Source of the DNA: Flavobacteriales bacterium BRH_c54
GTDB lineage: Bacteria > Bacteroidota > Bacteroidia > Flavobacteriales_E > Vicingaceae
Length of the DNA: 41,906 bases
Direction: 5' to 3'
Assembly (NCBI GenBank): GCA_000961845.1
Contig: LADZ01000034.1
Coordinates: 1 to 41,906, forward strand
Shown: positions 12,023 to 16,195 of the stretch, in pieces
Layout: every line of letters begins with the position of its first letter
Numbering within the stretch: position 1 is the first letter of the stretch
Position numbers and translations under genes: made by a program
The notes under the pieces: generated by a model
Told to the model about the DNA's origin: nothing
Seen by the model: the letters and a program-made list of their open reading frames with translations, nothing else
Database searches by the model: none

Positions 12023-13642
12023 ATGAAAAGAATTTTAATATTTTGTTTGCTCTTTTTTATGGGTTGGAGCGTGTTGAAAAGCCAGGTAGTGTTGCAGCCT
12101 ATTACTTCCAGTGTATATGAGTTTTTAGATGAGATGGCTCAAGAAAAGAAAATTGAGCTTAATTCGGCTGTTAAACCTTACTCACGAATGTTTATCGCTA
12201 AAAAATTGGAAGAAATTAATGAGCAAAAAACCGATTTAAATAAAAGACAACAAAAGGAATTAGTATTTTACCTTAAAGATTTTAACAAAGAACTGATTGG
12301 TACGAAAGGCGAATTTGAAAAAAGAAAAGATCTATTCTATTATAATGATAGTTTGTTTACTTTAACGGTAAATCCAATTTTAGGATTTAAGTATGCTACT
12401 AATGAAAATGGAGCTTATACACATCGTTGGAATGGTGGAGAATTGTATGGAAATATTGGAACTCATTTTGGTTTTTATGCTAGTTTACGGGATAATGGAA
12501 TTTCTGATATTTTAACCGCACCAGAACATTTAACTACTACTCAAGGAGGAAATTTTAAATACAATCAAGGACAAACCGGACAACGAAGTGATTATAGTGA
12601 AATGCTAGGTGGTGTTTTTTATTCGTGGAAATGGGGAAGGTTAGGAATTGTTAAAGATAATCATAATTGGGGGGATAATTATCATGGAGCTAATATCTTT
12701 TCAGGAAAAAACCCTTCGGTAGGGTATATTGACTTTAATATAAAACCAACATCATGGTTTGAGCTAAATTACATTCACTCTTGGTTGGTTTCAGAAATTT
12801 TGGATAGTAACCGAATATTTTTAGTGAACAACCAAAAAAGAGAAGTTTATACCAATAAAAATTTAGCAGCTAATTTGTTTACTATTAAGCCATTTAAAAA
12901 TTTCTTTATTTCATTGGGAAATTCAGTTGTTTATGCTGATGATGGTGTAAAACCATTTTACTTTATTCCATTTATGTTTTATAAATCGGTTGATCATACT
13001 TTTAATGGAGCAGGAAGTAATGCTGTAGGGCAAAATTCTCAGATGTTTTTTAATATTAGTTCGAGGCAGATTAAGCATTTACATTTATATACTACTGTTT
13101 TTTTAGATGAAATTAGTATTGGAAACATGTGGGATAAAAACAATCATACTAATCTTTTTAGTGCTAAATTGGGAATGAAAATCAACAATTTTCCAATAAG
13201 GAATACCTATTTAATTGCTGAATATACACGAACTAATCCATGGACTTATAGACATCAAATAGAATCGACTACCTATGCTTCTAATCAATATACATTAGGA
13301 CATTATTTGGGAGAAAATGCTCAGGAAATATACTTGGAAGCAGGTTTAAAAGTTATTCGTGGGTTAAAATTAGCACTAGCTTATACCCATGCACAAAAAG
13401 GTGATGCGCATGTTTTTGAGATTGTTCAAGGAAACAGTAATGTTACCGGATTAAATTTTATGGAAAGAGTTGATTGGGAAAACCAAACTATTGAGGCTAT
13501 CGCTTCTTACGAAGTAATTAATGACGGTTATATTTTTGCTCGAGCAGCTTTATCCAATATTAAAGGAAATGAATTCTATACTCCTGAATTGATGCGTGGA
13601 AAAACTACTACGATTACTGCAGGAATTAACTTTGGGTTTTAA
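12023..13642 (+). CDS. Wzi-like capsule assembly outer-membrane protein
   Basis: This 539-residue protein starts with a signal peptide (hydrophobic residues 4-18, then S-Q-V-V-L-Q). After a helical stretch around 30-90 it becomes a series of alternating amphipathic strands with aromatic ends, and it finishes in a Phe (T-A-G-I-N-F-G-F), as outer-membrane barrels do. The central motifs D-N-H-N-W-G-D-N-Y-H-G-A-N, F-S-G-K-N-P-S and I-H-S-W-L-V-S-E match the Wzi capsule-assembly family (PF14052 type) as I know it. Wzi holds capsular polysaccharide on the cell surface. As the last gene of the polysaccharide cluster it fits attachment or export of that polymer. A bidirectional terminator follows 5 bp after the stop. 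Confidence 0.82.
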   Translation: MKRILIFCLLFFMGWSVLKSQVVLQPITSSVYEFLDEMAQEKKIELNSAVKPYSRMFIAKKLEEINEQKTDLNKRQQKELVFYLKDFNKELIGTKGEFEKRKDLFYYNDSLFTLTVNPILGFKYATNENGAYTHRWNGGELYGNIGTHFGFYASLRDNGISDILTAPEHLTTTQGGNFKYNQGQTGQRSDYSEMLGGVFYSWKWGRLGIVKDNHNWGDNYHGANIFSGKNPSVGYIDFNIKPTSWFELNYIHSWLVSEILDSNRIFLVNNQKREVYTNKNLAANLFTIKPFKNFFISLGNSVVYADDGVKPFYFIPFMFYKSVDHTFNGAGSNAVGQNSQMFFNISSRQIKHLHLYTTVFLDEISIGNMWDKNNHTNLFSAKLGMKINNFPIRNTYLIAEYTRTNPWTYRHQIESTTYASNQYTLGHYLGENAQEIYLEAGLKVIRGLKLALAYTHAQKGDAHVFEIVQGNSNVTGLNFMERVDWENQTIEAIASYEVINDGYIFARAALSNIKGNEFYTPELMRGKTTTITAGINFGF

Positions 13643-13647
13643 ACAAA

Positions 13648-13672
13648 AAAAGCAACGAAACTCGTTGCTTTT
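13648..13672 (+). terminator. Bidirectional intrinsic terminator
   Basis: An 11-bp perfect stem (13648-13658 with 13662-13672) with a 3-nt loop and A-run/T-run flanks on both sides. It closes the Wzi-like gene on the plus strand and the small broken gene on the minus strand, whose ancestral stop (13692) lies 19 nt away. Confidence 0.88.
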
Positions 13673-13691
13673 AAATCCTCTTAAGTTTTTA

Positions 13692-13963
13692 TTAAGCTTC
13701 TCCCAATGGATTATCTGAAGTTTGAGTTACACTATCAATAAAACGTCCGTTTACTACATTAAAAGAAATAGGACCTAAAACCAGTTCTTGAGTCCGTTTA
13801 CTACATTAAAAGAAATAGGACCTAAAACCAGTTCTTGTCCACTATTATCATTTGGTGTTTGAAAAACGTATTTTTTTCCATCATGTCCGTCAATCATTCC
13901 TACGCCTTGTGATGTTCCTTTATTTCCAGGCGGAAATAATTCTTTTAAATCTCCTGTTGCCAT
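13692..13963 (-). pseudogene. Small protein gene with C-terminus shifted by a 47-bp tandem duplication
   Basis: Read from the ATG at 13963, the gene now encodes 62 residues and stops at 13775 with the novel ending L-K-N-W-F. Removing one copy of the 47-bp duplicated unit restores an open frame of 74 residues. That frame continues V-V-N-G-R-F-I-D-S-V-T-Q-T and ends D-N-P-L-G-E-A at a TAA (13692-13694), right before the terminator. The first 57 residues are unchanged. The pattern G-V-G-M-I-D-G-x-D-G-K-K-Y-V-F followed by L-G-P-I-S-F-N-V-V-N-G faintly resembles a cold-shock-domain barrel; I hold that loosely. The truncated protein loses what would be its last strand, so it is probably damaged, unless the duplication is an assembly error. 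No exact -7 box was seen upstream. Confidence 0.72.
13745..13837. repeat. Tandem direct duplication, 47-bp period
   Basis: Bases 13745-13790 and 13792-13837 are identical over 46 bp, separated by one base. The period of 47 is not a multiple of three, so the duplication shifts the reading frame of the small gene around it. No copy is seen elsewhere in the window, which fits a recent local duplication rather than a mobile repeat. Confidence 0.95.
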
Positions 13964-14080
13964 AATTTAATTTTTTTGTTCTATAAAATAGAAGGTTAAT
14001 AAATAATTTTTTTCGAAAATAGAAAAAATAATTTAATTATAAAGTAATTAAAAAAAAAATTATATCTTGGCTTTTATATT

Positions 14081-16195
14081 ATGAAAAAATTACTTGTTAT
14101 ACTATTTTTCATTTCTTTTCTCACGGTTGATGTATTTGCCGATTCAAAACATCAAATTGATAGTATTTTAACACGTGTATCTGATTACACAGAAAGTGTG
14201 CTTGATTTAAGGTTGATTTCTGATAAAGAATTACTTGACCATCTTAAGACACCTATAAATGATTTAGCAAGGTGTAAAATTTATAATGCTTTATGTTGGC
14301 AAAAATTTAATTCTGACCCTCCAAAAGCGATGGAATATGCTCAATTACAGCAGCCTTTGGCAGAAAAATCAGGTAATCAAGATGCTATAATTACTTCTTA
14401 CGATAATATGGCATTTCTTTACCACGGTTTTAATGATAATGAGAAAGCTATCATGTATATGTTAAGGGCATTAAAAATAAAAGAAGCGATAAATGATAAT
14501 TTGGGAGTTTCTACCAGTTTGTCCGGTTTAGCAGGCATCTATTATGATATGAATAATTTAAAGTTAGCGTTAAATTATTATAAACAATCTTTAGAAATAG
14601 AAAATAAAGTTGCGAATCAAACTGTTGAAAAAATAAGAAGAAAAGCTGCATTAATTGGAAATATTGGTTTGTGTTATGTTGGTACAGGAGAAATAGACAG
14701 AGGTTTAGAAACCTATTTAATTGTTGTAAAGCTTTATACAGAGAACAATTTGGAAAAGGAAGCAAGTACCACATATTCAAATATTGGAGCACTCTATTTG
14801 GAGCATAAAAAAAATTATAATCAAGCATTGCACTATTTTAAGTTGGCTGCTAAATTCTTAAATGAAAATGAAGATGTGGGATTATTGAGTTCTATACATC
14901 GAAGTTTAGCAGAAGTATATTACCAAAAAAATGATTATGTAAAAGCCTTATATCATGGAAAAAAAGGAATTGAATACGCTAATATGTCTAATGACAGAAA
15001 AACAATACTGGAGGCCAATAAAAAGCTATCTCGTATTTATTATAATATGGGGAAATATGAATTAGCACATCAACATTTTCAAATTGCTTTTGATTTAAAA
15101 GACTCTATTTTTAATGAAACTTCATCGCAACAAATTGCTGAAATGCAAACCAAATATAATGTTGAAAAAAAAGAAACAGAAAATGAATTGCTTAAAACAC
15201 AAAATCAATTAGGAAAAGTGGAACTAGAACGAAAGTCCACTCAACAATTTTACTTAATCATTAGTTTAATTCTAGCAGGGATTATTGGTGTTTATATTAT
15301 GTATAGTTTAGCTCAAAAGAAAAAAATCAATAAAATCCTTAATCAAAAAAATGAGCAAATTTCTACCAAAAATAAAATAATTGAAGAAAAAAATAAAGAT
15401 ATTACGGATAGTTTGAATTATGCTAAACGGATTCAGACGGCTATTTTGCCTGAAGAAAATCTACTTTTAAAATATTTTGATTCTTTTGTTTATTATCTCC
15501 CTAAAGATATTGTTTCGGGAGATTTTTTCTGGATAAAAGAAGCAGGTAATAAGTTTTATTTTTCTGTAGTAGACTGTACCGGACATGGAGTTCCTGGTGC
15601 ATTTATGAGTATTATTGGATTTAATTCGCTTAATCGAATAGTAGAAGATTTACAATTAAGTGAAACAGGTTCAATTCTAGACAAATTAAATGAGTTGGTA
15701 ATTCATTCTATTAGAAAACAAGATAAAGATGGAAGTTCAGTAAGAGACGGTATGGATTTATCTTTTTGTTGTATTGACTTAGAAAGTAAGATGCTTCAAT
15801 TTTCAGGGGCAAATAACCCTTTATATGTTTTAAGAACTGTTTCTGATGACAATAACAATTTGTCTATTTCCATGACTGAAAATGGGTATAACTTATTAGA
15901 AATTAAAGCTGATAAAATGGCAATTGGTGGGGCTGAAAATTCAAAAAAATACCAAACACATCAAGTACAATTGAAACAAGGAGACACTATTTATTTATTT
16001 TCTGATGGTTACGCTGATCAATTCGGAGGTCCTAAAGGGAAAAAGTTTATGTATAGACGTTTTAAGGAGTTGATACTTGCTATACAAGAGCATCCGATGA
16101 GTAAGCAAAAAGAAATTTTTGATACCACTATGCTCAATTGGAAGGGAGATATAGATCAAATTGATGATATTTGTGTTCTCGGGGTGAAAATTTGA
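14081..16195 (+). CDS. TPR sensor with transmembrane helix and SpoIIE/PP2C-type phosphatase domain
   Basis: The 704-residue protein has a signal peptide (to about F-A-D at 21). TPR repeats follow from about 65 to 350 (for example A-L-N-Y-Y-K-Q-S-L and A-L-H-Y-F-K-L-A-A). A coiled coil leads to one membrane helix at about 390-411, then a Lys/Glu/Asn-rich coiled coil to about 450. A SpoIIE-type PP2C serine phosphatase domain fills about 460-704, with D-I-V-S-G-D-F-F-W, V-V-D-C-T-G-H-G-V-P-G-A-F-M, D-G-M-D and the ending D-Q-I-D-D-I-C-V-L-G-V. The Asp residues in these motifs bind the metal pair. The likely arrangement is periplasmic TPRs sensing a partner and a cytoplasmic phosphatase acting on an anti-sigma antagonist or similar phosphoprotein; the target is unknown. 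A partial paralogue lies at 41333-41906. Confidence 0.9.
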   Translation: MKKLLVILFFISFLTVDVFADSKHQIDSILTRVSDYTESVLDLRLISDKELLDHLKTPINDLARCKIYNALCWQKFNSDPPKAMEYAQLQQPLAEKSGNQDAIITSYDNMAFLYHGFNDNEKAIMYMLRALKIKEAINDNLGVSTSLSGLAGIYYDMNNLKLALNYYKQSLEIENKVANQTVEKIRRKAALIGNIGLCYVGTGEIDRGLETYLIVVKLYTENNLEKEASTTYSNIGALYLEHKKNYNQALHYFKLAAKFLNENEDVGLLSSIHRSLAEVYYQKNDYVKALYHGKKGIEYANMSNDRKTILEANKKLSRIYYNMGKYELAHQHFQIAFDLKDSIFNETSSQQIAEMQTKYNVEKKETENELLKTQNQLGKVELERKSTQQFYLIISLILAGIIGVYIMYSLAQKKKINKILNQKNEQISTKNKIIEEKNKDITDSLNYAKRIQTAILPEENLLLKYFDSFVYYLPKDIVSGDFFWIKEAGNKFYFSVVDCTGHGVPGAFMSIIGFNSLNRIVEDLQLSETGSILDKLNELVIHSIRKQDKDGSSVRDGMDLSFCCIDLESKMLQFSGANNPLYVLRTVSDDNNNLSISMTENGYNLLEIKADKMAIGGAENSKKYQTHQVQLKQGDTIYLFSDGYADQFGGPKGKKFMYRRFKELILAIQEHPMSKQKEIFDTTMLNWKGDIDQIDDICVLGVKI

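Follow-up and report, generated by a model that had tools for sequence, protein, structure and literature searches.

A tandem duplication, probably recent, that shifts the frame of a small cold-shock-domain-like protein gene in Flavobacteriales bacterium BRH_c54

The question raised by this locus is whether a short tandem duplication inside a small gene is a very recent mutation in the strain, a reversible phase-variation switch or an assembly error; all three options had been offered by the initial annotation. The stretch of DNA analysed (hereafter, the window) is a whole contig of 41,906 bases from a 69-contig, 2.92-Mb draft genome.

In plus-strand order, the first copy of the 46-bp unit occupies 13745-13790 and the second copy 13792-13837, and the single base between them (13791; A on the plus strand), which is unlike either outer flank, makes the period 47 and puts the reading out of frame. 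Tandem Repeats Finder returned 13745-13837 with period 47, 2.0 copies, 100% matches and a score of 186, and direct comparison at an offset of 47 gave agreement at 46 of 46 bases, with no further match leftward. The claim of two identical 46-bp copies in direct tandem with a 47-bp period was thus correct base for base. In the whole 41,906-base window, the 27 overlapping 20-mers of the repeat are the only 20-mers that occur twice on the same strand; chance is therefore excluded. With adjacent identical coding copies and a period that is not a multiple of three, the repeat is a frame-shifting tandem duplication inside an open reading frame.

The copies fall in the minus-strand frame at 13775-13963 (stop codon included) and together extend beyond its stop. 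The frame encodes 62 residues ending LKNWF, in agreement with what had been claimed, and its product would be a cold-shock-domain-like OB-fold protein cut after strand 4. The cut-off C-terminal frame (minus strand, 13692-13745; 17 codons plus stop) reads RFIDSVTQTSDNPLGEA followed by the stop ending at 13692; it matches the C-terminus of an intact relative and is now out of frame, and the profile of the family picks up this tail of the window as a separate out-of-frame match (13695-13793, E 3e-5). The statement that the restored frame ends 19 nt before a terminator held as well: downstream of the small gene lies an intrinsic terminator-like hairpin (minus strand, stem 13672-13648), the sole terminator-like site in 13600-14120 (one found; shuffle mean, 0.1). 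The further argument that the duplication shifts the frame and that a single copy restores 74 residues was also correct, and is matched by a single-copy relative with a 74-aa product (L002, see below). Rescue of the tail would need a ribosome shift of -1 (or +2) before the TAG stop. Programmed frameshifting of this kind was rejected, as no slippery heptamer was seen before the TAG (on reading the sequence by eye), and the TTTT ahead of the stop would favour a +1 shift, which leads into the wrong frame and gives no rescue.

The small gene was searched for at successive taxonomic levels. Matches were found in 2 of 6 genomes of the genus and in 9 of 46 genomes of the family, the window's own genome among them in both cases; the order search comprised the same 46 genomes and again gave 9 matches. 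The class search covered 395 genomes, an even sample of a larger group, and 4 of them matched, namely the window's own, G103 (from another family of the class), and two genomes whose matches are ordinary cold-shock proteins; two true cold-shock proteins (L022 and L023) match the family profile at E 9e-7 and 6e-4, respectively. Neither of the two matches in G103 (L021 and L024) enters alignment A1 or the set of relatives considered below; one of the two was read as a longer protein. This is L021 (reverse strand, about 193 to 660 of the reversed locus), in which a related N-terminal domain is followed by a longer threonine-/serine-rich C-terminal part; no family-like frame was present among the frames listed for L024. 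A profile match in G037 (E 0.004) was rejected as a family member, since the frames listed for its locus (L019) include no family-like one.

In one scan, genome contigs yielded a single close relative, L002, from a Flavobacteriales metagenome-assembled genome of the same genus, which we take as the same record as the genus-search match G002. It has one copy of the segment and encodes a 74-aa protein, 86% identical to the window product over 57 aa. The relatives' ending had been predicted from the window alone: L002 does end RFIDSVTQSADNPLGEA at 74 aa, but two residues differ from the prediction. We aligned eight relatives (L002 and L005 to L011), as had been suggested as a check. The frame is open through the region in all eight, the motif I-x-S-V/I, lost in the window, is kept in all eight, and the short ending of the window product occurs in none of them; the longest exact direct repeat within the gene measures 46 bp in the window versus 7 to 10 bp in the eight relatives. 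The relatives thus have the ancestral single-copy form. Because L002 is single-copy with 74 aa and the short ending is absent from the eight relatives, we place the lesion in the window's lineage.

The age of the event was considered from the two parts of the gene compared apart. Against L002, dN and dS were 0.063 and 0.61 for the first 57 codons and 0.052 and 0.92 for the 17 codons of the cut-off tail, values that come from few sites and one close relative; they suggest purifying selection on both parts and, since the dN and dS values of the tail resemble those of the rest of the gene, the tail appears to have been under selection until recently. With identical copies and a tail that still shows purifying selection, the duplication looks young. 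The zero differences in 46 bp would place it in roughly the final tenth of the branch since L002, a bound set by 3/92 = 0.033 substitutions per site versus about 0.3 on the branch under the assumption that the copies drift at the synonymous rate.

As for the origin, the plus-strand edges share GTCC (left, AAAACGTCCG; right, TTCTTGTCCA; junction, TTCTTGAGTCCG), which on the gene strand is a GGAC/GGAC microhomology at the unit ends, at one end not kept in L002. A likely route is template slippage at or near this 4-base microhomology, with one or two bases added. A clean GTCC join would give a 45-bp, in-frame duplication, unlike the observed 47-bp period, and the junction base at 13791 is not accounted for by simple slippage. 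Microhomology-mediated tandem duplications, for example in the ssp1 gene, inactivate the gene and may revert (review PMC13207564). The present duplication is similar in its few matching flanking bases (here GTCC), in the apparent inactivation of the gene and in the possibility of reversion; it differs in having additional sequence at the junction and a period of 47, where a GTCC join would give 45.

We regard a recent loss-of-function mutation, perhaps revertible, as the probable explanation: a tandem duplication of 46 bp and one additional base, specific to this lineage. It is the best fit of the three options, with identical copies and a tail under purifying selection, and we read it as a loss-of-function mutation because the site shows no recurrence in the relatives and the microhomology is not conserved.

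An assembly or consensus error, in which the true genome is single-copy, would be in keeping with the draft state of the genome (69 contigs) and with the single-copy state of the sole close relative; we nevertheless judge it unlikely. The junction A continues neither flank, and hence would come from a read, not from a graph loop, and both copies together span 93 bp, shorter than an ordinary short read. Exact tandem runs (period 4 to 399) were searched for in 388,229 bases (the window plus 20 stretches, about 13% of the genome); apart from the window repeat, this gave arrays whose units measure 7, 14 and 16 bp and a single 318-bp repeat, the last of which lies at a contig end and is the only other two-copy repeat with a unit longer than 40 bp.

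The other repeats of the scan are recorded here. Perfect arrays were located at L032:1-80 (14 bp), L032:16717-16789 (16 bp), L040:11666-11717 (7 bp) and L047:2491-2554 (7 bp), and two shorter 16-bp arrays in L044 and L046 of the same genome. At the contig end L034:1-571, the 318-bp direct repeat has a 253-base exact run; it may reflect domains repeated within one protein, or else the edge of an assembly.

The option of a reversible switch takes the duplication as the off-state of a contingency locus that is restored by slippage between the 46-bp copies. Exact adjacent copies make a good slippage substrate, and the two 46-bp copies are of this kind, so that reversion of the present allele by such slippage may occur. 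An evolved switch is a different matter, and we hold it to be more doubtful than an assembly error. A substrate conserved or recurring at the locus is what a phase-variable locus would have; in none of the eight relatives does an exact direct repeat in the gene exceed 10 bp, L002 lacks the GGAC microhomology at one end, and the small OB-fold-like product gives no sign of a surface structure. The nearest precedent is found in pneumococcal capsule genes, which phase-vary through out-of-frame tandem duplications (PMC4022640); spontaneous tandem duplications in the type 3 capsule locus, cap8E and tts reportedly cause phase variation (Waite 2001 and 2003, as cited in PMC8406281; Waite 2001 is likewise cited in PMC2600794), and a nine-base insertion in the capsule system reverts at about 1e-5 at most (PMC4022640). 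The present case resembles these in being a short direct duplication that inactivates an open reading frame and could in principle be lost precisely; unlike them, it is seen in one genome, affects a protein that gives no hint of a role at the surface, and shows no sign of recurrence. A recent mutation thus remains our preferred reading.

We next describe the protein. No Pfam family matched four intact relatives at E up to 1; no cold-shock domain match (PF00313) was obtained at E up to 1 for these four or for the window form, and the curated cut-off was not reached. Three other, ordinary PF00313 proteins of the window genome score above that cut-off. With NCBIfam, weak CspD matches appeared for 1 of the 4 members (best E 0.007, far under the cut-off). 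DUF3892 (PF13031) was rejected for the window product (E 0.087; 13.8 bits versus a cut-off of 22.3; absent in the four relatives scanned alongside). Homology to cold-shock domains was found by profile comparison: the family profile A1 matches CspE (3i2z; E 0.001) and CspA (1mjc; E 0.003), among the 18 PDB sequences listed with an E of 10 or less, 17 are named as cold-shock or Unr chains, and hhalign against five true cold-shock domains gave a probability of 96.3 and E 1.9e-9. In structure, Foldseek with the model of an intact relative against the PDB gave a best E of 0.66 and nothing at E 0.001 or better. VIA-align 2 gave OB-type matches and placed initiation factor IF-1 first (Z 7.2), with cold-shock domains at Z 6.2 to 6.7 and 17-29% identity among the rows listed; such Z values are middling, and the match may mean just a common arrangement. 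Since Foldseek gave nothing significant and the VIA-align Z values are middling, the fold assignment leans mainly on the sequence profiles. The RNP1 and RNP2 aromatic motifs are the nucleic-acid-binding motifs of the cold-shock domain. These are absent here: in most members, QGVGMI- and VFQT-type sequences stand in place of KGFGFI and FVH (alignments A1 and A3). Compared with the cold-shock domain proteins (PF00313; CspA, CspB and CspE), the family is therefore alike in profile homology and structural alignment, and unlike in having no Pfam match and replaced motifs, and in that IF-1 scores as well in structure. Because of the replaced motifs, our call from these comparisons is that the small protein is cold-shock-domain-like and is not to be filed as a cold-shock protein.

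In the AlphaFold model of the intact relative (pLDDT 76.4, pTM 0.64), strands were predicted at residues 2-10, 21-26, 31-35, 48-55 and 59-64, as in a five-stranded OB barrel. In the model of the window product (pLDDT 75.8, pTM 0.54), four strands only were predicted (2-10, 21-26, 31-35 and 48-52); the fourth is shortened, and the product has neither strand 5 (residues 59-64 of the relative) nor the tail. The two mean pLDDT values barely differ, and the models come from shallow alignments (9 rows) and from a method that is poor at judging truncations. In the proposed course of events, translation would pass through one copy, enter the next in the wrong frame and stop after five foreign residues, so that the small protein would lose strand 5 of its five-stranded barrel together with the C-terminal tail. 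As strand 5 would be lost from a closed barrel, we infer that the fold is destabilised and that the truncated product most likely lacks stability or activity, although an OB protein shortened in this way might still be partly active. It seems to us highly improbable that selection maintains the 62-aa form as a functional short variant. In its favour, 57 of the 62 residues are family sequence, with start, leader hairpin and terminator all intact; against this, the copies are identical and selection could not yet show in so young an event, all eight relatives keep strand 5, and LKNWF is merely the out-of-frame reading of the next copy. We thus continue with a recent loss of function.

The leader of the small gene has a hairpin (minus strand, 13979-13993; arms TTCTAT/ATAGAA) 15 nt before the start codon and, directly 5' of it, the conserved sequence ATTATTTATTAACC (minus strand, 13994-14007), whose core is TTATT[AC]A in the 8 leaders aligned and ATTTATTAAC in the window. 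In the relatives, a hairpin stands at the same place with arm sequences that differ yet stay complementary. For the pairing test, L002 (same hairpin as the window), L009 and L021 (leaders unlike the rest) were left out. Perfect arms of at least 4 pairs occurred in 7 of the 7 non-redundant leaders (1 of 2000 shuffled sets reached as much), and arms of at least 5 pairs in 6 of the 7 (0 of 2000 shuffled sets). The control is rough, because the sequences used for the test are those in which the hairpin had first been noticed, and the shuffles preserve nothing beyond base composition. The hairpin is a possible element of RNA-level control of the small gene. The pattern ATTTATT[AC]A occurs at 63 places in 388 kb, 3 of which, the window's included, are followed by a hairpin with arms of at least 5 pairs. 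Two candidates were rejected: McaS, the sole Rfam match in 13000-14500, is a chance match (21.4 bits versus a gathering score of 42; E 0.59), and a genome-wide leader regulon was not indicated by the pattern AWTATTTATTMAYC, with 3 matches in the genome versus 4 for the reversed control.

The divergent neighbour (plus strand, 14081-16195; open frame of 704 aa) has TPR repeats and a SpoIIE-type phosphatase domain. TPR-type matches to its first 300 residues are common (32 of 46 family genomes at E up to 1e-10); close phosphatase orthologues (E below 1e-74) are present in 7 of the 46, the next best match being at E 6e-23. In 7 of the 7 genomes with a close orthologue, the small gene lies divergently beside the phosphatase gene (in the window, the pair spans 13775-16195); of the nine carriers this leaves two, G020, in which the contig ends 230 bp upstream, and G015, with another context. 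With carriers in 9 of 46 family genomes, and in 6 of the 32 whose completeness is at least 90% and contamination at most 5%, the small gene looks dispensable at the family scale. The kept pairing with the phosphatase gene argues against a plain reading as dispensable, and for a role of the small gene where it is present. A limited literature search found no paper joining the cold shock domain, SpoIIE and Bacteroidetes.

A bolder reading would make the duplication an off-state that can be reversed, set in the small-protein half of an undescribed two-gene module of TPR-SpoIIE phosphatase and degenerate cold-shock-domain protein under the leader hairpin. If this were true, slippage between the copies would switch a phosphatase signalling module; we rate it a shade less probable even than the evolved switch in general. 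As a mutation, the change is ordinary, a clear frame-shifting tandem duplication caught before decay. The better lead is the conserved pair, a SpoIIE-type phosphatase and a degenerate cold-shock-domain protein, whose small member is unnamed by Pfam and NCBIfam (four scanned); for this pair, the window genome offers a natural case in which one half is broken and the other half is open.
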